Shown piece by piece: positions 590 through 10,154 of a stretch of DNA of 64,000 nt. The position numbers and the translations under genes are program-made. Each line of letters begins with the position of its first letter. Position 1 is the stretch's first letter. Source of the stretch: Alteromonas sp. MMG017 (GTDB lineage Bacteria > Pseudomonadota > Gammaproteobacteria > Enterobacterales > Alteromonadaceae). The notes beneath the pieces were generated by a model. The model did no database searches. It saw only the letters and a program-made list of their open reading frames with translations, and had not been told where the DNA came from. The DNA lies in contig NZ_JAGJDY010000006.1 of the NCBI RefSeq assembly GCF_018100795.1, positions 124,001 through 188,000 of the forward strand, read 5' to 3'.

Positions 590-999
590 GAGAGCTCCTT
601 TACCAAACAATTAAGGCTGAATGTACTAACGTCTTACTACCTTTATATTTGAGATTGGGCAGATGTTTATTAAGAACTATGAATGTATCTTTATTTAGCA
701 CCCAAATCCAACCCTTCTTGTGCCATCATTTTCTTAACTGCGTTGCGGCATAGCATAATTTGATAGTGAGCATTTAAACCTTAGGAGCACTAAAACCTCA
801 GGGCCCCTAGAGTCATCATGCCTTATGCAAGCTTCACGTAATTTAGTTTGTTTTCATTACGACGTCTTTTGAATAAATCATGTCGGGATTGATTATCTGT
901 CATTGCTTCATTCTCATATACTTTTTCTATAGAAAACTTACCCAATACTAGGTGTACTTCTTCACCAAGGTGTCGTTTCGGGTATCAACGAAATTAAGA
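590..999. other. Intergenic stretch with a possible degraded ORF end
   Basis: No complete gene is seen. On the minus strand, 691-780 reads as about 29 codons ending in TAA with coding-like composition (… KKMMAQEGLDLGAK), but an upstream stop closes it and no start is present. It may be the tail of a decayed gene. The interval must also hold promoters for the leftward phzF-like gene and the rightward oxygenase, but I could not assign clear -35/-10 boxes. Confidence 0.3.
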
Positions 1000-1857
1000 A
1001 TGAAAATGGCACTTGACCCTGACAGATTGATAAATTTAACGCGTTATCCTATTGGTATAATAGGTAAAGATAGAAAAGATTTAATTGCGCAAATAAGCGC
1101 TGAATTAAACCAACATGGCTGCGCAGTGTTAAAAAATTTTCTTACGCCAGAAGGCATCGCGGCTTGTATTCACGAAGCAGATAGCGTTGCTGCACATGGA
1201 CATCATAGCTATTCTCGCACCAACCCGTATTTTACTGCAGAAGATACATCACTGAATGCTGATGACCCTAGGCGAAAATTTTACGAGCGATCAAGTGCTT
1301 TTATTAGCGCGGACAATTTTCTTGAGCAAGCACCTTTACGTACCGTTTTTGACTGCAATGGTTTCGATGCCTTTATACGGGGTTGTTTGCAAATACCTGA
1401 AGACCGTTTTTTTCGCTACGCCGACCCATTAGCAGATGTAATTGTAAATATGGCCACAGAAGGGAATGGTTTTCCATGGCACTTCGATACCAACAACTTT
1501 ACGGTGACACTGGCGCTTCAAAACGCCGATGAGGGTGGAGATTTCGAGTATGCGCCAATGATAAGAACCACAGAATGTGAAAATTTCGAAGAAGTTTCAA
1601 AGGTGCTATCAGGTACTTCAAATCGAGTAGTAAACCTTAAGCTTAAACCGGGCGACCTGCAATTATTTAAAGGGCGCTACTCTTTGCACCGAGTAACACC
1701 GTTAAAAGGAAATACACCCAGATACGTGGCCATATTTTCGTATGTAGAAGAGCCGAGCATGGTAGGTAACGTAGAGCGCACTATGCAACTATATGGCAAA
1801 ACCTTACCCATCCATCACCAACAAGCAAGCTTGAGGGATGATACCCTCATCGACTAA
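1000..1857 (+). CDS. 2-oxoglutarate/Fe(II)-dependent oxygenase (HalD/BesD-like family)
   Basis: A predicted non-haem iron oxygenase of 285 residues. The metal triad is visible: WHFD gives His161 and Asp163, and SLHRV gives His230, with Arg241 (TPRYVAIFSY) placed to bind 2-oxoglutarate. The fold resembles the HalD/BesD group, which contains amino-acid halogenases. Halogenases replace the Asp of HxD with Gly or Ala; here the Asp is kept, so hydroxylation is more likely than halogenation. The frame is open upstream to a GTG at 952, but the ATG at 1000 (or 1006) fits a family N-terminus better. The ribosome site is weak. The substrate is unknown. Confidence 0.75.
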   Translation: MKMALDPDRLINLTRYPIGIIGKDRKDLIAQISAELNQHGCAVLKNFLTPEGIAACIHEADSVAAHGHHSYSRTNPYFTAEDTSLNADDPRRKFYERSSAFISADNFLEQAPLRTVFDCNGFDAFIRGCLQIPEDRFFRYADPLADVIVNMATEGNGFPWHFDTNNFTVTLALQNADEGGDFEYAPMIRTTECENFEEVSKVLSGTSNRVVNLKLKPGDLQLFKGRYSLHRVTPLKGNTPRYVAIFSYVEEPSMVGNVERTMQLYGKTLPIHHQQASLRDDTLID

Positions 1858-1994: not shown

Positions 1995-2324
1995 CTAAAT
2001 AACGACTTTCTCAGTATTTGGAAATAATACACAAGCACGCTCAAAAACTTGAGCAGAGTATCTTTTCAAAAGGTTGATATCAATGGCATTTGAACTTTGA
2101 TTAAATACCGTAATAATGCTGCCAGCTTTTTGAATACGTGCTGCGCTTTGTTTGCTTATTCGCTTACCCTGAGACGGCCAAAGCCTTGCCAAGGGGGTAT
2201 GAAGAATTAGGACTTCATCCCCGATTTCTTGCAAGACATGCTCAGGACTATTCAGGCGTGGCGAGCGGAACAATAAGAAAGTAACTAGTGTTGTAAGTAT
2301 TGCTACTAAATAGAGATATTGCAT
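1995..2324 (-). CDS. Hypothetical protein with N-terminal membrane anchor
   Basis: A 109-residue protein of unknown function. Residues 1-20 are hydrophobic (MQYLYLVAILTTLVTFLLF) and should form a single N-terminal transmembrane helix or uncleaved signal. The rest is soluble with no motif I recognise. It is the last of five small minus-strand genes (3832 down to 1995). The leftward neighbour is the 80-bp REP-like palindrome. The ATG at 2324 is the only good start. Confidence 0.6.
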   Translation of the reverse strand: MQYLYLVAILTTLVTFLLFRSPRLNSPEHVLQEIGDEVLILHTPLARLWPSQGKRISKQSAARIQKAGSIITVFNQSSNAIDINLLKRYSAQVFERACVLFPNTEKVVI

Positions 2325-2413
2325 CCGGTTGTCATTTTCCTTTAGTGAATGGGATAAGTGTTAATTAATAAAAATCAAAGTATCCCAATCCGCTCTGGTC
2401 CAATTAATCTAGT

Positions 2414-2671
2414 TCATTTGCCTAAATACCAAACAGCTAAAGTTAACATTACAAGGTAAAAGACAAATACGCCATAGCTAGTCAACTTTGATGGTGGTGA
2501 ACTACTTTGAATTGTAGGTTTATCGTCATCTTCTAGTTCGTCAAAGTTTATTTTTTCTAGACTTAATGCGGAGCCGGTATAAATCTTTACTGCTATTGCA
2601 CCTGCACCAATCGCTAACTCTTTGAACGCTCGCTTTTCAATCATAGTGAGGCCACCTTCAGTTTTTTCCAT
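2414..2671 (-). CDS. Small hypothetical protein with C-terminal transmembrane helix
   Basis: An 85-residue unrecognised protein. An N-terminal helical segment (IEKRAFKELAIGAGAIAVKIYTG) is followed by an acidic linker (ELEDDDKP), a serine/proline-rich stretch, and a C-terminal membrane helix from about residue 67 (YGVFVFYLVMLTLAVWYLG). A later start (MIEKRAFK, residue 10) is also possible: the GTGAGGC before it could serve as a ribosome site. It lies between the MreB-like fragment and the next small membrane protein, suggesting co-transcription, but no function can be given. Confidence 0.55.
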   Translation of the reverse strand: MEKTEGGLTMIEKRAFKELAIGAGAIAVKIYTGSALSLEKINFDELEDDDKPTIQSSSPPSKLTSYGVFVFYLVMLTLAVWYLGK

Positions 2672-2692
2672 CGGGTGGATAATAACCTTAGG

Positions 2693-3007
2693 TCATGGCC
2701 GTAGCATTTTACTATTACCTAAATGTCTAAACGTGTGTTGCAGTAATTTTTCGCCTACATAGAAATCTGAAAAAAGCACTCTAGGGTGGGAAAATGGATT
2801 AATGGCAATTTCATTATGTTGAAGCCTCTCACTCGCTTCTTTACCAACACCTGAAATCAGCTTCGCACCTTTATCGTTAGTTTTAATGACTATAGCGGGG
2901 TAATCATCAAAAGATTCGCGCGTTGCAGTATCAGTGACTTTTAATCGGTGCTCCCAAATTTGTACATACATGACTGACGCAAATTTTGCGCGTAAATTTG
3001 AAAACAT
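2693..3007 (-). CDS. Truncated MreB-like protein (N-terminal actin subdomain only)
   Basis: This 104-residue protein aligns by eye along its whole length with the first ~110 residues of MreB. Shared features are an amphipathic start (MFSNLRAKFA), a VGKEA segment matching MreB VGHDAKQ, FSDFYVGEKLLQHTFRHL matching MreB IADFFVTEKMLQHFI, and a terminal MLRP matching FMRP. The nucleotide-binding DLGTAN loop of MreB is replaced by QIWEHRL, and subdomains IIA/IIB are absent. ATP binding and filament formation are therefore unlikely. It could be a regulatory or degraded derivative. It has its own start and a plausible stop, so I treat it as a gene rather than a pseudogene. Confidence 0.6.
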   Translation of the reverse strand: MFSNLRAKFASVMYVQIWEHRLKVTDTATRESFDDYPAIVIKTNDKGAKLISGVGKEASERLQHNEIAINPFSHPRVLFSDFYVGEKLLQHTFRHLGNSKMLRP

Positions 3008-3061
3008 CCTATGTTCCTTAGTTTAAATGGGTAAGTGGTTCTTAATATTTAAACTACTTGT

Positions 3062-3526
3062 TCATATATGAGAAAAGTTGCATTGCTTTTCTGTTTCAGC
3101 TTTATTTTTAGAATTGCTAACCATAAAGTTCAATTGGATTGTGGTTAGTACCGGTGCGTTTTCAATATTGTCTTCTGACGCTGACCACTTCCACCTGTTT
3201 AATGCTGTTGCCGCAGATTTGTCAAATACGCCTTCAGGGTATGACTTTTTAATTTTAAACCCACCTAGTGTTCCGTTACTATCAATTGCTACAATAAAAT
3301 CAACACAGCCAGACAAGCCTCTTCTAGCGGCATCAACGGGGTACTTAGGGTCTGCACTTTTTGTTACTACCCAATATCTTTCGGTTAAATTCTTTTTACT
3401 GTCTGCGGTTAAATCTAAGTACCGAATTGGTTCTTCAGCAAAAGCTTGGGTAGCTTCGTTGGGCTTATGCGATGCACAAGACATCAAAAAAACGCTTAGA
3501 ATTGATAATGAAACTAATTTTCTCAT
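3062..3526 (-). CDS. Lipoprotein with TonB C-terminal-like domain
   Basis: A 154-residue predicted lipoprotein. The signal peptide ends in a lipobox (SVFLMSCAS), giving a lipidated Cys near residue 17. From about residue 60 the pattern PKYPVDAARRGLSGCVDFIVAIDSNGTLGG… is the usual TonB_C/energy-transducer motif (YP..A...G..G.V...V...G). There is no N-terminal membrane anchor or proline-rich linker as in true TonB, so it is probably an outer- or inner-membrane-attached TonB_C-domain protein rather than an energy transducer. An antisense open frame of equal length here is a shadow. Confidence 0.7.
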   Translation of the reverse strand: MRKLVSLSILSVFLMSCASHKPNEATQAFAEEPIRYLDLTADSKKNLTERYWVVTKSADPKYPVDAARRGLSGCVDFIVAIDSNGTLGGFKIKKSYPEGVFDKSAATALNRWKWSASEDNIENAPVLTTIQLNFMVSNSKNKAETEKQCNFSHI

Positions 3527-3601
3527 CCATAACTCCTTGTAGTTCTAGCATCCTGCTTGTTTAGTAAATGCCAAAGCGCGCAGCGTTGGGTACTTTTTTG
3601 C

Positions 3602-3832
3602 TTATGTACTTGCTAATTCAGAGTTACTTTTCAGTTGTTTAACGCAGCGTACAAAAACAGATATAGATGTTATTCCACCACAAATGATTCCGACTTCAAG
3701 GATAGATAGTTCAAATGACCCTAGTACATACATAGTGCCAATTGTTGAACCAAGCACAAATGCAGCTGCTATAAAAACTGCGAGAGCAATAACTAACATT
3801 GACCAGGTCGCAATTTTATTCCATGTAGACAT
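3602..3832 (-). CDS. Small two-helix membrane protein, unknown
   Basis: A 76-residue protein with two predicted membrane helices (about residues 9-30 and 40-62). It has no recognisable family motif. It is the first gene of the small minus-strand cluster, starting 54 bp from the attC-like site at 3886-3973, so it could itself be a captured cassette gene. A GGAAA-type ribosome site precedes the ATG. Function unknown. Confidence 0.55.
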   Translation of the reverse strand: MSTWNKIATWSMLVIALAVFIAAAFVLGSTIGTMYVLGSFELSILEVGIICGGITSISVFVRCVKQLKSNSELAST

Positions 3833-3885
3833 ACTGAATATTTCCTAAGATTGTATTTAAGTACATAATTTTTCAATTACGGGTG

Positions 3886-3973
3886 ATAACGCTTGGCTAA
3901 AATTTTATGTTGCGAATAGAGACTGAGCCAAGCTTCAGCCGTCGCGCATAAGTAGTGAGCAGTGCGTTAACTT
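3886..3973 (-). repeat. attC-like recombination site (candidate)
   Basis: Read on the minus strand this begins GTTAACGC and ends GCGTTATC. Internally paired GCTTGGCT / AGCCAAGC boxes surround a spacer, so it can fold as an attC-type hairpin. On the plus strand the ATAACGCTTGGCTAAAAT end resembles the corresponding end of the two clear attC sites at 7046 and 7953. The R' box GTTATCA departs from the GTTRRRY consensus. A truncated ORF ends just before it (3991), the arrangement expected of a cassette. Confidence 0.4.
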
Positions 3974-3990
3974 CGCCACAACCTACCTGA

Positions 3991-4101
3991 CTACCAACTC
4001 GCGCTGTATTTATTATTTGCTTCAGAAGCTTCGACTTCTAATGGTGCTTTATCGTATCCGTTCTCTGCCATATCAGAAAAGTGTTGGGTGACGACTTTAC
4101 C
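3991..4101 (-). pseudogene. 3' remnant of a cassette ORF
   Basis: In this frame 36 sense codons end at a TAG (3991-3993), reading GKVVTQHFSDMAENGYDKAP…NNKYSASW. The composition looks coding, and the stop lies about 17 bp before the attC-like site, as in integron cassettes. No start is present, and a stop bounds it upstream exactly where the duplicated PadR-upstream DNA begins (about 4103). I do not recognise the family. It is best read as the surviving tail of a cassette gene cut off by the adjoining rearrangement. Confidence 0.4.
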
Positions 4102-4102
4102 T

Positions 4103-4343
4103 CAACTAGACCTCTAAACCGATCCGTTTAAACACATCATTCTGAGTTCAATCCTTTAATCAATAAATTCAGATTACCCTCCAACTCATCAAAATTAAAC
4201 AACAAATTAAATTGGTGCTCTTCGCTCACAAATTGAAAGACCAAAACGAACCGTTAAAAGCGTAAGTTGTATTTTGGTTGTTTACTATGCTATAAATTAT
4301 ACTATGTATTACATAGTAATAAGTTTAACCTAGCTGGAAGGTC
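4103..4343. repeat. Upstream DNA of padR, copy A of a diverged direct repeat
   Basis: This segment shares ordered blocks with 9073-9290: AACTAGACC at the left edge, then TCAGATTACCC, CAAAAT-AAACAA, GGTG-TTCGCTCA, and AATAAGTT-AACCTAGCT just before the PadR start. No other gene is present. The similarity is imperfect and needs an alignment, but the block order is conserved. Confidence 0.55.
4301..4317. promoter_or_regulatory. Probable PadR autoregulatory operator
   Basis: ACTATGTATTACATAGT is a perfect 17-bp palindrome 27 bp before the PadR start. It contains ATGT…ACAT half-sites like known PadR operators and overlaps AT-rich promoter-like DNA (TATAAATTATAC at 4291-4302). Autorepression is inferred from position. 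Confidence 0.55.
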
Positions 4344-4748
4344 ATGACAGAAACTGCAAATCAAAGCGCGAAGTGGGATGCTCAACTACGCAAAGGTACT
4401 TTAGAGCTGGCGGTGCTTGCGGCCGTTGCGGGTGAAGAAAAGTACGGGCTGGCGATCCTTAATTATCTGCATGGTTTTGAAACCATGGTGATTAGTGAAG
4501 GTACGCTTTACCCACTGCTAGATAGGCTTAAGCGCGAAGGGGTACTTAATGCAAAATGGCACCAAGAGGGTGAAGTGCGCCCACGCAAGTATTACTCATT
4601 AACAGAAAGCGGTCTTGAACGATTACATATTCTGCGCGCGCGGTGGAAGCGTTCGGTAGTTGATATGGAATCGTTGTTAGCAGACTCAAAAAGTGGCGCG
4701 AATAACAGCACAGACAACGGCAAAGAAACAGGAAAAAGAAAAGGATAA
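4344..4748 (+). CDS. PadR family transcriptional regulator
   Basis: A 134-residue winged-helix regulator. Residues 15-95 give the PadR pattern: LRKGTLELAVLAAVAGEEKYGLAI, EGTLYPLLDRLKREGVL, then PRKYYSLTESGLERL. PadR proteins usually repress small operons and are displaced by a ligand or membrane stress. The C-terminal ~20 residues are polar and low complexity. The gene is 5 bp upstream of a HAAS-domain membrane protein, a standard PadR partner, and the two are almost certainly co-transcribed. A palindromic operator sits in its promoter. A degraded copy lies at 9266-9497. Confidence 0.9.
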   Translation: MTETANQSAKWDAQLRKGTLELAVLAAVAGEEKYGLAILNYLHGFETMVISEGTLYPLLDRLKREGVLNAKWHQEGEVRPRKYYSLTESGLERLHILRARWKRSVVDMESLLADSKSGANNSTDNGKETGKRKG

Positions 4749-4753
4749 GCACA

Positions 4754-5332
4754 ATGAGTGGAAGGGAACAAATAAGCAACTACCTAAAAAGCTTTAACCG
4801 CTACTTGGCCTCGTTAAGTTCTGAAGATGCGGCTGAAGTGATTAAAGAAATTGAATCTCATATTTATGACGTTATCGATCAACAGGAAATGGCCGGAAAA
4901 GACGCCGATATTGAAGGTATCTTAGCTGGCCTTGGTGCGCCTAGGGTTCTTGCCGAAGACTACGTAAGTCATATTCAACAAGGTACGCCGCCACCAAAAG
5001 GATTTCGTCCATTAGCATCGGTCACTAAGGGGCTGTCGAAAACCTTGTACTGGGGCATGTTAGTCTTTGGCTATGGTACAGGTTTAGCGTTGGTTCTATT
5101 AGCATTTGCAAACCTATTGTTGCCCAATGGTATTGCTTTTTGGGTAGAGGCTGAGGGGAACTCTGTTGCTATTGGTTTTTTAAGTAACCCCATACTGGCG
5201 CATAGCGACACTACTATCACAGGTTTGTGGATAACGCCGGTGGCCTTAGTAAGTGCCTATGCGATTAGCTTACTTACTTATCGCATTCTGGCTTTGCTTA
5301 AACGGTTTGCTATTGGCTATCAGTATGCTTAA
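4754..5332 (+). CDS. HAAS-domain (DUF1700-like) membrane protein
   Basis: A 192-residue protein. Residues 1-80 form a helical HAAS-type domain (YLKSFNRYLASLSSEDAAEV, EIESHIYD), and two hydrophobic segments follow at about 95-120 and 155-185. HAAS proteins are encoded next to PadR regulators and are thought to sense or anchor at the membrane. The stop codon overlaps the start of the phosphatase gene by 8 bp (ATGCTTAA), showing translational coupling. The ligand and partner are unknown. Confidence 0.8.
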   Translation: MSGREQISNYLKSFNRYLASLSSEDAAEVIKEIESHIYDVIDQQEMAGKDADIEGILAGLGAPRVLAEDYVSHIQQGTPPPKGFRPLASVTKGLSKTLYWGMLVFGYGTGLALVLLAFANLLLPNGIAFWVEAEGNSVAIGFLSNPILAHSDTTITGLWITPVALVSAYAISLLTYRILALLKRFAIGYQYA

Positions 5333-6596
5333 GCGTGCAGCGAAACGTTTAGCCAAATCACTAGGGCATTTTCTGCTTGTTTCTTTTGTATTGGCGGTTA
5401 TTGGGGTGGGTGTCTTAATAAGCCAGCATGGGTCTATCAATATGGGCGATGCGCCATTGGCCTATAAAGTAGGTGGGGAAGGACCGTTTGTCTTTTTCAA
5501 GGATGAAACGCCCATAAGTTTTGATGTTACAGGCTCTGATGTAGCAGGCGCAGATGTTAAAGGCTCTGGTAATGGGGATACTTCTGTTGAAATAAATTAC
5601 ATTCGGGGAAGCCGAGAAGATAACTTCTTTATAGAAAAACGCCACGTGTCTTTAACAGAAAAGACAGCAGAGCCCCTTGAGGTTTATTTTGCTTTAGAAG
5701 ATGCCACGTTTACTTTCAATTTAAAGCCATTAAACGCACTGCACACCAATACAGCGTCGGTATATGAAAGCAACGCACCTATTTTGGCAATATCCGACTT
5801 AGAGGGGAATTACAAAACCTTCCGTGATTTCCTTATTACCCATAACGTCATTAATGAAAACCTTGAGTGGCAATTTGGTGAAGGCCATTTAGTGCTAGTG
5901 GGCGACATGGTAGACAGAGGGTTTTCTACTACCCAATTGCTCTGGTTCATTTATAAGCTAGAGCAAGAAGCCCAAACAGCGGGTGGGGTGGTGCATTACA
6001 TTATTGGCAATCACGAGCTTAAAAACCTTCAAGGCAATTTTAAATCTGCGGCTAATAAGTATATTCCCATTGCGGGGTTGCTTGGCAAAACCCAGGCCGA
6101 TTTATTTAGCCACAATTCGTACATAGGGCGTTGGCTTGCCAGTAAAAATACTATTGAAAAAATAGACGGCCATTTGTTTGTACATGGCGGTATTCATGAA
6201 GATATCGCGAACCTTGATTTAAGTTTGCAACAGATAAACGCCAAAGCTAAAGCCTATTACCGACAAATGTATTTTCCCGGTGTGGCAGACAAGGTAACGG
6301 AAGCGTTAATTTCAACAGAGAGGGGTCTGGCGTGGTATCGAGGGTATTTCAAAGATGATGTAAGTTATACCTCTGTACAGAAAACATTAGATAAGTTCGA
6401 CGCACTATCAGTAACGGTTGGGCATACCTTACAGTTTAAGGTGAATAAACAGTTTGATGGCCACGTGTATGCGATTGATGTGAAACATCCTGATGATTAT
6501 CGCGGAAGCTTTCCAACAAAACATTCTGAGGGATTGTTGATTGAAAAGGGTAAGTTTTATCGGCTAACTGAAACCGGTGAAAGAATAGTTTTATAA
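5325..6596 (+). CDS. Membrane-anchored calcineurin-like metallophosphatase
   Basis: A 423-residue protein using the ATG at 5325 that overlaps the upstream stop. A membrane helix at about residues 15-38 anchors it with the bulk outside the cytoplasm. An unassigned beta-rich region spans roughly 40-145. The phosphatase core follows: ISDLEGN, GDMVDRG, IGNHE, FVHGG and VGHT, the five PPP/metallophosphoesterase motifs in order. Motif 1 is D-x-E rather than the common D-x-H. It resembles bacterial Shewanella-type protein phosphatases. The operon link to PadR/HAAS suggests a role in envelope signalling; the substrate is unknown. Confidence 0.85.
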   Translation: MLKRAAKRLAKSLGHFLLVSFVLAVIGVGVLISQHGSINMGDAPLAYKVGGEGPFVFFKDETPISFDVTGSDVAGADVKGSGNGDTSVEINYIRGSREDNFFIEKRHVSLTEKTAEPLEVYFALEDATFTFNLKPLNALHTNTASVYESNAPILAISDLEGNYKTFRDFLITHNVINENLEWQFGEGHLVLVGDMVDRGFSTTQLLWFIYKLEQEAQTAGGVVHYIIGNHELKNLQGNFKSAANKYIPIAGLLGKTQADLFSHNSYIGRWLASKNTIEKIDGHLFVHGGIHEDIANLDLSLQQINAKAKAYYRQMYFPGVADKVTEALISTERGLAWYRGYFKDDVSYTSVQKTLDKFDALSVTVGHTLQFKVNKQFDGHVYAIDVKHPDDYRGSFPTKHSEGLLIEKGKFYRLTETGERIVL

Positions 6597-6639
6597 GTAT
6601 TTGGGAATTAGCTTTAGTTAAGTTTATCTATAACGAATA

Positions 6640-6679
6640 GGGTAGAGTGCATTTTTAGTCGTTAAAGTACTCTGACCCC
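6640..6679. repeat. REP-like imperfect palindrome, 40 bp
   Basis: Arms GGGTAGAGTGCATTTTTA (6640-6657) and TAAAGTACTCTGACCCC (6663-6679) are imperfect inverted repeats around a 5-nt centre. The outer arm matches the element at 1924-1941. It abuts the half attC at 6684-6740 and appears to have replaced the missing half of that site. Confidence 0.55.
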
Positions 6680-6683
6680 TTTA

Positions 6684-6740
6684 TTCATACTGCGAAGCAG
6701 AGCCCGCGTGTTTGTGTCCCCAACATTTGATTGTTAGGTG
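6684..6740 (-). repeat. Truncated attC site (R''/L'' half only)
   Basis: On the minus strand, CACCTAAC (6740 to 6733, the R'' box) is followed by GGGGACACAAACACGCGGGC and an apex-like TCTGCTTCGCAG. The complementary second arm and the R' GTTRRRY box are missing. Instead the sequence runs into the REP-like palindrome. The site lies 16 bp after the stop of the 93-residue cassette gene, the expected place for its attC. Confidence 0.6.
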
Positions 6741-6755
6741 AAAAGCTAACACAAC

Positions 6756-7037
6756 CTATGGTTTGATGAGTAGAGAATTACCGCACTTTTTACATTTCAG
6801 CTCTACATCCATGAGAAGCTTAGTGAAAATACCTAATGCTGAAGTGACTAAAAAGGCGATGATTTTATATAACGCTGATGGGGCAAAAAGTATAGCAGAG
6901 AAAAAAGCCACGATATAAGCAACGACTAGAATATGCAAAGCCGCGTTCCACACGCTCTTAGAAAATACATATTCAGCTTCACTGTAACAGAGCAAACAAC
7001 ATGCTATATCTTTTTTCTTCAATCCAAAGGTAAGCAT
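6756..7037 (-). CDS. Cassette gene: zinc-ribbon-like two-helix membrane protein
   Basis: A 93-residue protein starting at the ATG at 7037, 8 bp after the attC core site. A longer frame upstream would run back into the attC hairpin and is rejected. Two cysteine pairs (CCLLC near residue 13, CKKCG near residue 82) flank two hydrophobic helices (about residues 31-75). This suggests a split cytoplasmic zinc ribbon held at the membrane. I recognise no family. As a cassette gene it was probably acquired horizontally. Confidence 0.65.
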   Translation of the reverse strand: MLTFGLKKKDIACCLLCYSEAEYVFSKSVWNAALHILVVAYIVAFFSAILFAPSALYKIIAFLVTSALGIFTKLLMDVELKCKKCGNSLLIKP

Positions 7038-7045
7038 TCCGGTTT

Positions 7046-7148
7046 CACCTAACGCCGTTTTAAGCGGCAAAAATTGTTGGCTAAAATAGTGAACGAAGTG
7101 AACAAAAGCCAACTGTTTTTTGTCCGATTTGAAAACCCCTGTTAGGTG
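7046..7148 (-). repeat. attC site (103 bp)
   Basis: The outer boxes CACCTAAC and GTTAGGTG are perfect inverted repeats. Inside, GTTGGCT and AGCCAAC pair, extended by AAAAACAG / ATTTTT, and the spacer carries a further GTTCACTTCGTTCAC hairpin. The R' box GTTAGGT fits GTTRRRY. It lies 9 bp downstream of the stop of the 257-residue gene. Confidence 0.85.
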
Positions 7149-7157
7149 TGGTCTAAA

Positions 7158-7931
7158 TTAGTACTTCTTGAAGTTATCTAAGTTTCTGCCACCTTTACCC
7201 GATATATTTAAAATACAGCAAACAACTTCAAAATATTTAGGCTCGATTCCTTCGATTTCTTTGTAGTCACCATGATCGTTAAGTGAGCGAATTGTCGGAA
7301 AGTGTCCCCACAAGCTATTGTTAGTTATGTAATCATTTACTTGTGTGTGTTTTGAAAACCCATTTGCCTTAAAGATATTTATGTACTCTTGAATTTCTGA
7401 ACTTTCGATTTGACTTAAACTCATCCCCTTTAAAACGCTATTTGCTTGATGCTTTGTATTGTACTGCTTGTAAAGTAAATACTGTTTCTCGAACTTAGAA
7501 CTACCTCCGGAGACTAATAATTGAAGTTGGTGCCAACTCAACTTTACTATATTAGTAATATGTATTGTTGATTGGTGTCCCTTTCGATTTGTCACCTGAA
7601 CGATTTCATTTACCTTTAAGTTCGCAATTTTGCGGTATAACACCGGATTGTACTCGAACTTTTTCTCAGTAGTTACCGATGTAGTGAAAAGAGGTTTATG
7701 TTGTTTAACCAATGAAACTTGAGGTTTTACAAGTCGAGCAATAACTCGTTCGGGTTTAGGTAAAGGCTCAGATTTAAGCACCTCTTCAAGTGATTTTCCA
7801 AACTGTAGCTTTCCCAGTACCTTTTCTGCAGTTGCGCGACTAAATTCGTGATGGATTAACTCATCATTTTGAAAAATGCCGTAATGCGTCCCAAGACTAT
7901 TATTGCTAATTCTATTAATTTTGAAACTCAT
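7158..7931 (-). CDS. Cassette gene: hypothetical protein, 257 aa
   Basis: A hydrophilic, lysine- and asparagine-rich protein with no signal or membrane segment and no family I can name. The N-terminal ~55 residues (THYGIFQNDELIHHEFSRAT, then GKSLEEVL) look like a small separate domain. A basic linker (about 55-90) leads to a longer C-terminal region ending GKGGRNLDNFKKY. The start lies 21 bp after the R' box of attC 7953-8048, and the stop lies 9 bp before the next attC, so it is a complete cassette. It is AT-rich compared with core neighbours. Confidence 0.75.
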   Translation of the reverse strand: MSFKINRISNNSLGTHYGIFQNDELIHHEFSRATAEKVLGKLQFGKSLEEVLKSEPLPKPERVIARLVKPQVSLVKQHKPLFTTSVTTEKKFEYNPVLYRKIANLKVNEIVQVTNRKGHQSTIHITNIVKLSWHQLQLLVSGGSSKFEKQYLLYKQYNTKHQANSVLKGMSLSQIESSEIQEYINIFKANGFSKHTQVNDYITNNSLWGHFPTIRSLNDHGDYKEIEGIEPKYFEVVCCILNISGKGGRNLDNFKKY

Positions 7932-7952
7932 TCTTTAAACCGGCCTTTTGAA

Positions 7953-8048
7953 CACCTAACGCTTAAATAACAGGCTAAAAATTGTGGACTAAAATGGAGC
8001 GGAGCGAACAGCCCACTGTTTTTAGTCCTTGTTTATTTTCTTGTTAGC
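7953..8048 (-). repeat. attC site (96 bp)
   Basis: On the minus strand GCTAACAAG (R'') opens and GCGTTAGGTG (R') closes the site. GGACTAAAAACAGTGGGCTG pairs with the CCATTTTAGTCCACAATTTT arm around a GTTCGCTCCGCTCC apex. The R' box GTTAGGT fits GTTRRRY. It starts 3 bp after the stop of the 331-residue gene, as typical for cassettes. Confidence 0.88.
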
Positions 8049-8051
8049 TTT

Positions 8052-9047
8052 TTATATCACCCACTTGATCAAGTCATAGACATAATTGGTAAACAAACCT
8101 ATCAAAAGGGTTCCAGTTACCCCTAACCCACTCCAAATTAAAGACTTTTTATTTCTTTGAGAGAACTCTGTAACTAATTTTGCATCACCTTTGTTCAATT
8201 TCAGGTAAGACATGGCTAAATAACTATCGATAGCTGATTCAACTTTACTCAACAATGTATCTGCAAGATTACCTATTATCACAAAAGTTGAAGCGTATAT
8301 AACTAAGAACTTAAGAGTTAAATCTGAACTTATTTGCTGCGTGTCAATTGCCGAAGCGGTAAATAAAGCGAGTAATCCATAAATGGTTAACGTACCAAAT
8401 TTGCGAACTAAATGAGATATACGCTGCAATGGAGCAATCATTTTTAAGCTTTTAGACTCATCACAACCTTTAATCCATTCATCAAACATAGCTGTGAAAT
8501 GCCTAGCTTTAACATAATCACAATAATGAACCGTGATTCTTGCAGTAGTTGTAACCATACTTGAAATTAATGCCGACGATATAAATGGAGGAGCTTCTTT
8601 TTCAATTTGCTGTAATTCTCCAATTCGTGAACGTACTTGATTGATGATTTTATAATTTTCAAATTCTTCTGTTTCAGTGTTATAAAGAGTAAATGTATAA
8701 AGCAGTATTATATTGGCAGTTGGATTAGGGCTTGTTATATTGTGTTTCTCAAACTCCTCAAATGAATTAAATTTTTCAGACTCACCTTCGTGATGAGAAA
8801 CCGCAATCTGAACCCCTAAATTGTCTTTGGCTGGATTTAAAGACCGTATCGATTGTAGGTTTTTGAAATGTAATTCTTTAATATCTTCAAAGCAGACTAA
8901 AATATTGTCATTGTATGATTTAGAAATTTCTTCGCTTCTAGCGTTAACCTTATCATGTATTTTTAAGTATAAATCCAATTGAACGTCTTCATGTCTAACT
9001 ATGTTGTTGGATGACTCATCATCCATGACCTCAACAACATTTCCCAT
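8052..9047 (-). CDS. Cassette gene: hypothetical membrane protein, 331 aa
   Basis: An unrecognised protein. Residues 1 to about 205 are soluble and acidic, with a likely helical region near 30-70. The C-terminal third has three predicted membrane helices (about 217-238, 243-265 and 305-327). The order soluble domain then membrane domain suits a membrane-tethered sensor or effector, but no catalytic motif is visible. The attC site begins 3 bp after the stop. An AGGAG ribosome site precedes the ATG (ACTTAGGAGTACGTAATG). AT-rich codon use supports foreign origin. Confidence 0.75.
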   Translation of the reverse strand: MGNVVEVMDDESSNNIVRHEDVQLDLYLKIHDKVNARSEEISKSYNDNILVCFEDIKELHFKNLQSIRSLNPAKDNLGVQIAVSHHEGESEKFNSFEEFEKHNITSPNPTANIILLYTFTLYNTETEEFENYKIINQVRSRIGELQQIEKEAPPFISSALISSMVTTTARITVHYCDYVKARHFTAMFDEWIKGCDESKSLKMIAPLQRISHLVRKFGTLTIYGLLALFTASAIDTQQISSDLTLKFLVIYASTFVIIGNLADTLLSKVESAIDSYLAMSYLKLNKGDAKLVTEFSQRNKKSLIWSGLGVTGTLLIGLFTNYVYDLIKWVI

Positions 9048-9072
9048 TACGTACTCCTAAGTTTGAAAAAGC

Positions 9073-9290
9073 TAACAGCTAACTAGACCCCAATCCGGTC
9101 TGTCTAAACACACTGTTATGGGTTTTTTAATTTTATCCATATTGTCAGATTACCCGCTAACTTCCCAAAATAAAACAATTAATCAGAATGGTGTTTTTTG
9201 CTCATGGGTTAAAAGTACTAAAATGGTGTATTAGGGGGTAATGGTGCATTTCGCTCATTTGCTTCTTTTTATAATAAGTTGAACCTAGCT
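9073..9290. repeat. Copy B of the padR-upstream direct repeat
   Basis: Ordered matches to 4103-4343 begin with AACTAGACC right beside the cassette edge, continue through GTCAGATTACCC and a GGTGTTTTTTGCTCA block, and end with AATAAGTTGAACCTAGCTT. The palindromic operator of copy A is not preserved. No gene is encoded. Confidence 0.55.
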
Positions 9291-9497
9291 TAAAAGTACG
9301 AAATGAATTTAAAAACAAAGCGGGGAAGCGAAGTAAAAGCGACATAGCACTAATAGGGCTAAAAAGTACGCCAACAAAAAAATTATTGTCTGACCGGAGG
9401 TAGACTTAATTATTCTACGGGATGGTGGCAGAGTTCAGTGATAGATATGGAATCGTTTATAGAAAATTACCAAAGCGAAAGAGGGTACAAAGGGTAA
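9291..9497 (+). pseudogene. Decayed, internally deleted padR copy
   Basis: The 5' part after AACCTAGCT keeps CAAAGCGGGGAAG, matching the start of the intact gene at 4344. The middle is lost. From 9381 to the TAA at 9495-9497 the frame reads NYCLTGGRLNYSTGWWQSS then VIDMESFIENYQSERGY, matching YYSLTESGLERL … RSVVDMESLLADSKSG of the PadR C-terminus. About 170 bp of the expected internal coding sequence is absent and no start codon aligns. This looks like a relic of an old segmental duplication. Confidence 0.65.
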
Positions 9498-9624
9498 GGC
9501 AACACTCAAGGTACGAGTATCGAATCTACCCAACGCTGGCACTAGCACAAAAATACAAGCGCAGCGTTAGGCAAGCCTAAGCGATAAACTATTGTTAGTT
9601 AGAAACTTAAGCCATAAAGCAATA

Positions 9625-9909
9625 CTAGCTATAAAAGCAAAGGTAAGCTGTAGGCGTTTCAATTTTTACATCGAAAGACAAGTTAGCGTCTATGGTAAAT
9701 TCTGTGCCCGTTTTGAAAGACTGCCAGTCGCTTGAGCCAGGAAGCTTAACGGTCATTTCGCCTTCCATTACTTTCATTACTTCGTGCTGACTGGTGTTGA
9801 AGGTGTATTCACCTGGCGCCATTACGCCTGAAGTGCATGGGCCATTTGCCGACTCAAATGCAATTGAACGAACCTTGTCATCAAAATAACTGTTTACTGT
9901 AAAAGACAT
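9625..9909 (-). CDS. ppnP: Pyrimidine/purine nucleoside phosphorylase
   Basis: A 94-residue cupin-fold protein of the DUF1255/YaiE family, which phosphorolyses several nucleosides to free base and ribose-1-phosphate. The family pattern is clear: MSFTVNSYFDDKVRSIAF, then GVMAPGEYTFNT, then a C-terminal TAYLCFY. The ATG at 9909 is chosen because AAAGGAAAG sits just upstream and the N-terminus then matches the family; the frame extends further up without support. It is divergent from the YdiJ-like gene. This marks the return to core genes after the accessory island. Confidence 0.9.
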   Translation of the reverse strand: MSFTVNSYFDDKVRSIAFESANGPCTSGVMAPGEYTFNTSQHEVMKVMEGEMTVKLPGSSDWQSFKTGTEFTIDANLSFDVKIETPTAYLCFYS

Positions 9910-10154
9910 AAACTGCTTTCCTTTTATCGAGAATAGAAGAGCGGGCATTGTGCAATATTTATGGTTGAATGGCTAACTTGTGATTTTCTAAGATATTCTA
10001 ATTGGATAAGAATACCCGTCTTTAAAACACTTCCTGTTATATAAAGTGCAAAATTAGTCATTAAAACCACATGAAATATGTGTAATTGTCTAGAGACTCG
10101 CAAGCGCTGTGGTTATACTAGCTCACAATCGCATTTCCAGAGGTTTTACAGCAA

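Follow-up and report, generated by a model that had tools for sequence, protein, structure and literature searches.

A putative orphan attI module at the edge of an integrase-less gene cassette array in Alteromonas

Organization of the locus and the repeated padR segment

The stretch of DNA analysed here, referred to as the window, comprises 64,000 nucleotides (contig C55:124001-188000) of a 4.73 Mb genome of the genus Alteromonas. Near its left end lies an open reading frame of 301 amino acids (952-1857, plus strand), presumably resembling an oxygenase, for which tblastn gave no match in the loci fetched from five relatives. It is followed by conserved small minus-strand genes (1995-3832) to the left of padR. 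In the counterparts of genomes G033 and G010 (L020, L021) the gene at 1995-2324 adjoins padR and two other small genes were not found. Relatives of the genes at 2414-2671 (44-45% amino acid identity) and 2693-3007 (65%) are located at position 9416-10000 of locus L150 in G004, a different species, at the distal end of the orphan-attI array there; in the window no significant attC site was found among the small genes. The next feature is a C-terminal gene stub (3991-4101, minus strand), cut by a deletion, of which the longer version in the same-species genome G077 contains HELVHVLQ.

The intact padR gene (4344-4748, plus strand; PF03551, E 1.3e-17) is preceded by a leader (copy 1, 4104-4249, plus strand; profile score 62 bits) and, as judged from sequence comparison, by a palindromic operator-like sequence (4285-4333). 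The part 4288-4327 also precedes the padR relatives of G003 and G019, and these relatives are without the module described below. Downstream of padR follow genes for a HAAS-domain protein (4754-5332, plus strand; PF22564, E 1.1e-11) and a calcineurin-like phosphoesterase (5328-6596, plus strand; PF00149, E 4.2e-9). In locus L085 of G080 the 3' end of the phosphoesterase gene and the DNA downstream of it are present twice (90% identity; oriented 2713-2935), and the DNA inserted there is therefore flanked by direct repeats. Between the phosphoesterase and the second copy of the leader (copy 2, 9072-9262, plus strand) lies a cassette array (6608-9071). Copy 2 is followed by a remnant of the padR-proximal leader (9272-9297, plus strand; 85% identical to 4317-4342), a padR relic (9301-9497, plus strand), and a palindrome with attC-like ends (9528-9572), read from the alignment and present in six of six genomes, a candidate for either a terminator or a minimal recombination site. 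The palindrome separates the relic from ppnP (9625-9948, minus strand; PF06865, E 5.3e-34), the 3' end of which faces copy 2.

A preliminary description of this DNA had stated that blocks of the padR upstream region and of both gene ends recur in order and that the middle of the gene is deleted in the second copy. Both statements are borne out. The local alignment of 4100-4343 with 9070-9310 scores 74, and none of 500 dinucleotide shuffles reached this value (mean 19.6, maximum 35); by blastn the two leader copies are 72% identical over 125 bp. For the gene part, 4344-4748 against 9300-9497, the score is 39 with a shuffled maximum of 30 (0 of 500). When the DMES block is taken out the gene part alone becomes borderline, as its score is reached by 205 of 500 shuffles with scoring 2/-3 and by none of 500 with 1/-1. 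The alignment of relatives settles the gene part: six relics and five padR copies have the leader and the 5' and 3' gene ends in common, and in G033 the relic shows 49% amino acid identity over padR residues 76-124 (tblastn). The shuffles rule out a chance similarity of AT-rich DNA.

The PadR domain is incomplete in the relic, with ~280 bp of the gene middle absent from all six relics. Because this central gap is closely similar in the six, the middle of padR was most likely lost before the genomes split. Both copies, the one with the relic and the one with intact padR, are present at the locus in every one of the six genomes that have it (in G080 the two are on a single record), and these results support the proposal of an old segmental duplication of leader and padR. 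An empty site with a single padR was not seen in a search via ppnP, padR, and the dehydrogenase gene. Relatives of padR at E<=1e-25 occur in five more of the 59 genus genomes (62-66% identity), but none of these five has the module, ppnP, or the dehydrogenase gene within 1.5 kb and they therefore do not represent the state of the window locus before duplication. Among 30 ppnP loci examined (43 genomes matched), the dehydrogenase gene lies within 1.5 kb in six, which form the clade of the window.

It had also been described that both repeats begin at the same AACTAGACC immediately beside cassette-type DNA. The common start is indeed found in both copies, but copy 2 already has its edge nine bases upstream of AACTAGACC, with the CTAACA at 9072. 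Moreover, the 10-mer AACTAGACCT occurs twice in G077 (6630 and 7145 of the oriented locus), once within a minus-strand gene and once in the padR leader, and only once in the window (4104-4113). The ~515 bp between the two occurrences are absent from the window, where the C-terminal stub remains. The shared AACTAGACC start is thus the scar of a ~515-bp deletion and not an end of the duplication, and the core of copy 1 was removed in the window strain by this deletion, which ended at AACTAGACCT; the right edge with the core region of copy 1 is retained in G077 and G082. Cassette DNA with attC sites adjoins copy 2, whereas beside copy 1 there is the gene stub and no significant attC site (15 bits, E=0.55).

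Relation of the leader to integron attI sites

The leader had been taken for the promoter of padR. That it is simply padR's own promoter is ruled out, since it occurs at other loci without padR. Its sequence relations point instead to an integron attI together with the region upstream of intI, that is, to an orphan attI module of ~190 bp. Copy 2 is 75-86% identical to stretches of 167-223 bp at other loci or in other genomes. Aligned with the intI-upstream region of G027 over 189 bp, the leader scores 47 (300 single-base shuffles: mean 11.5, maximum 18). A profile built from 14 copies, none of them at an intact intI locus and one (G018 C30) with intI remnants, was run on 50 intI loci, in one of which (L111) the script found no open intI frame. 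Nine loci matched at E<=0.01 (best 2e-15), with matches that begin at the same core. In eight of these nine the intI frame starts less than 300 bases from the core, and in G003 it starts after ~1.4 kb.

The left edge of the module is sharp, and at other loci, in the same as well as in other genomes, the left flanks are unrelated. In a set of 45 copies (38 orphan, 7 upstream of intI), from which matches with a profile start after position 3, including copy 1 of the window, were left out, the pairwise identity is 31% in the 30 bases left of the core and 78% in the first 20 bases of the module, and TAAC is found at core positions 2-5 in 44-45 of the 45. In the window the core CTAACA occupies 9072-9077, with the cassettes to its left on the minus strand, so that the array has its edge at a GTT core as in attI (GTTAG, minus strand, 9072-9076). 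Since intI-linked and orphan copies are 92% identical up to base 183 in G035 and 91% identical up to base 187 in G027 and then unrelated, the module may have been copied as a unit in these two genomes. The corresponding values are 80% up to base 187 in G022 and 96% over only 89 bp in G003.

A consensus scan of 9000-9650 for a cassette promoter (Pc) directed into the array yielded no minus-strand site and one plus-strand site, which is no more than expected by chance, as shuffled sequences average 1.6. In the six genomes column conservation is higher in the leader (83.7%) than in the relic (71.7%, p=1e-6), but it is matched by that of the spacer in front of ppnP (83.0%, p=0.97). In the same-species pair of window and G077, identity is lower in the leader (77-85%) than in the relic (87%) and the spacer (93%).

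For a survey of the genus a model of 15 copies, including the intI-linked one of G027, was used with a cut-off of E<=0.01. The module was found in 43 of the 59 genomes, with 77 matches altogether. Fifteen matches are within ~1.5 kb of a listed intI match: 13 adjoin an intI above the curated cut-off, one a truncated intI, and one lies at 1.4 kb. The other 62 have no listed intI nearby, a number that includes some matches at contig ends and in which the weakest intI matches, being unlisted, are not considered. Orphan modules recur at conserved loci, namely next to ppnP and the dehydrogenase gene (six genomes), a DEAD-box helicase gene (four), an aminotransferase-like gene (four), and the gene of a 712-residue protein (ten); the names of these flanking genes except ppnP were read from the sequence and are putative. 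At all four loci the 3' end of the flanking gene faces the module. In an order-wide search 8 of 197 genomes match, the six outside the genus only weakly (best E 1.7e-5). Two weak matches each were observed in G094 and G114, which belong to another family of the order.

Multiple copies within one genome were also encountered. Two orphan modules of G063 are 88% identical over 195 bp, and G066 carries, at a distance of 5 kb, two copies of a segment made up of an orphan attI and part of its flanking gene (90% over ~410 bp), which by analogy may be regarded as a parallel to the duplication of attI and padR. The module may be mobile, it may be homogenised by gene conversion, or it may be a conserved part of integrons that were lost.

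The cassette array and the change of content at the core

The attC sites were searched with a covariance model built from 14 sites, none of which is from the window; a finder based on box patterns and folding was discarded, as it gave many false matches (mean 3.3 per 16 kb of shuffled DNA). All cassettes are on the minus strand. Directly beside the orphan attI lies the first cassette open reading frame (8052-9047), followed leftwards by an attC site (7954-8049; 66.4 bits, E 1.8e-13), a second open reading frame (7158-7931), a further attC site (7047-7147; 66.5 bits, E 1.6e-13), and a third open reading frame (6756-7112). None of the three has a Pfam match. As the listed start of the third falls inside the attC site, an inner ATG at ~7037 is its probable start. 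A relative of this frame (71% amino acid identity) directly adjoins the intI-linked attI of G027; further relatives of the cassette (70-71% DNA identity) are G020:C18:1501-1826 and G063:C1:2592241-2592596. At the left end we read a truncated attC site (6687-6740); sequences 84-100% identical to it are found in many places across the genus. Abutting it, the minus strand at 6650-6690 reads GGGGTCAGAGTACTTTAACG, which we take to resemble REP-type repeats.

In the whole 64-kb window only the two attC sites score at E<0.5, both on the cassette strand, the next match being 3863-3972 with E=0.55. Compared with a complete integron the locus has the attI and attC cassettes that read away from it and has no adjoining intI; having at least two attC sites without a nearby intI, it falls into the class of CALINs. 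Among 14 other orphan-bearing loci, attC sites are on the core side in eight (E<1e-5), where three matches in L084 and L085 arise by construction because the model was partly trained on these loci. One locus has a weak site (E 0.0013), and five (L083, L021, L022, L027, L087) have none at E<=0.01, L022 and L027 holding less than 0.5 kb on the core side. Of 20 more orphan loci, 16 carry attC sites at E<1e-4, one has a weak site (E 0.007), and L151, L157, and L160 have none. Together 8 of 34 orphan-bearing loci are without attC at E<=0.01.

When the window is compared with its five relatives, the conserved blocks end at 6607-6617 (G080 has one further block, up to 6689) and resume at 9073 in G082, G080, G033, and G010 and at 9077 in G077. 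Between these ends only a 50-bp match (G082) and an 86-bp match (G080) were found, both within attC, and none of the three cassette open reading frames was detected in the loci fetched from these relatives. The TAACA core is kept in five of the six genomes; G077 reads GAGTGAG at this locus and has no attC site there at E<=0.01. The same pattern is seen at the helicase locus. There the same-species genomes G000 and G077 are 99.1% identical for 8,529 bp rightwards from the attI core, whereas left of the core there are only matches of 103-122 bp with 79-85% identity in the 1.9 kb held by the G000 contig. Between G082 and G077 the identity is 95.1% over 8,062 bp; this stretch begins a few bases to the left of the core, and past it nothing matches. 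The array thus has a fixed edge and attC sites, and its content changes at the core. We take the pairs at the helicase locus and the comparison of the window as the strongest evidence that cassettes change exactly at an attI without an adjoining integrase.

A distant integrase and the origin of the array

The genome of the window contains one intI above the curated cut-off (C22:520161-521108). Matches of intI type are present on contigs C22 and C1 only and none on C55, and among the tblastn matches listed (all E>0.3) no trace of intI was found at the window locus or under the relic. In the genus 56 of 59 genomes, and none of 14 control genomes, have an intI above this cut-off. The IntI of the window strain shares 56-58% identity with two integrases associated with this type of attI (G027, G081). 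Contig C22 ends ~230 bp past intI, and its attI was not seen in the assembly. In G077 the attI beside an IntI of this type has only the core TAACAATTTA in common with orphan copies such as that on C5. The core of the window copy reads TAACAGCTAA, with three differences in ten from TAACAATTTA.

We consider it probable that the locus holds two attI modules, each fused to padR, and that the relic copy forms the edge of an array which is exchanged at the core by a distant IntI. An old tandem duplication of the segment of attI leader and padR would have given rise to the two repeats, and the loss of the padR middle from the second copy would predate the divergence of the six-genome clade. The core of copy 2 would then be the fixed edge of the cassette array running leftwards from 9072, and the integrase encoded at C22:520161-521108 would act in trans, inserting and excising cassettes at this core. 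Several points count against this reading: the strain's own IntI is of another type, the core is TAACAGCTAA, the core is lost in G077, 8 of 34 loci are without attC, and the leader is no better conserved than the spacer.

Other explanations have to be weighed. According to the preliminary description, the duplicated DNA is a padR promoter with its gene, and the cassettes entered by homologous exchange between the repeats. The leader and both padR ends are in fact duplicated in order, and the duplicate in G066 illustrates that such duplications occur. As a whole this explanation is nevertheless very unlikely, as the leader is found also at loci without padR and upstream of intI, and as the borders of the variable segment are the attI core and 6607-6689 rather than the ends of the repeats. 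Given blocks that end at 6607-6689 and restart at 9073-9077, and given attC sites on the cassettes, cassette change at the 9072 core, with junctions exact to the core, seems a better explanation of the intervening array than homologous exchange. The differences between arrays might also result from homologous recombination among the arrays themselves, for which attC repeats could serve as short homologies and shared cassettes as further ones; one piece of ~52 bp recurs at up to 100% identity. We regard this as improbable, since crossovers at attC would leave a common first cassette next to attI, and the change is at the core itself in G000 and G077 (helicase locus) and in four of the five relatives (window locus).

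It is less improbable, though still unlikely in our opinion, that each orphan site is what remains of a complete integron after the loss of its intI, having been loaded with cassettes earlier and no longer recombining. This would fit the intI-type protein pieces (34 and 25 amino acids, 56-59% identity) downstream of the orphan attI of G018 C30, where the DNA has 66% similarity over 381 bp to the attI-intI region of G027, as well as the truncated intI beside the module in G064 and the loss of the core in G077 at the locus of the window. At the helicase locus, on the contrary, strains of the same species have flanks that are 99.1% identical and that pass into different arrays at one and the same base, which suggests a change after intI had left that flank, and the window locus shows no intI trace among the listed matches. 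On balance the exchange of cassettes by an integrase acting from elsewhere is the reading we prefer. A more far-reaching proposal, which we put forward tentatively, is a distributed integron in which one integrase serves several separate attI modules of ~190 bp, scattered over conserved chromosomal loci, and the docking site, copied as a unit, may spread independently of the integrase.

Integrase-less attC arrays in Alteromonas are already published: part of a report of 2014 mentions 'two other regions' that have attC sites but no integrase (PMC4119200). For an orphan attI that anchors CALINs, no description was found in the titles and abstract beginnings of the open-licence PMC literature. 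The array resembles the CALINs of the former report in its at least two attC sites and its variable cassettes without intI nearby, but it is anchored by a recognisable attI module, of which the available excerpts of CALIN accounts make no mention. With the sedentary chromosomal integron of Alteromonas it shares the attI and leader family of one group of intI loci, the attC type, and cassettes reading away from attI; it differs in that the window site has no intI in cis and padR or its relic is in the place of intI. In placement it is similar to the cassettes at chromosomal places away from intI in excerpts of PMC12444791, from which it differs by the homology to a true attI over ~190 bp. The Xanthomonas CALINs treated there likewise recur at fixed chromosomal loci away from intI, but in those excerpts the fixed places are ascribed to ancestral integron activity and no attI is mentioned. 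Delta-attI-type gene cassettes also have an attI away from its usual place adjoining intI; according to part of that report (PMC12901181) they lie within resistance cassettes of mobile integrons and are not chromosomal anchors.

Cassette arrays that lack an integrase are common, and it has been proposed that they are degraded integrons. Where a preserved attI is present, such arrays can be live outstations fed in trans, which would account both for their recurrence at fixed places and for the differences between strains there. According to an excerpt of its description, IntegronFinder 2.0 recognises no attI other than those of class 1 (PMC9024848), and such orphan sites would therefore be missed; the sequence family of the module offers a direct route to find and test them. 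The orphan attI sites would form a family that marks cassette change in Alteromonas chromosomes away from any integrase gene.
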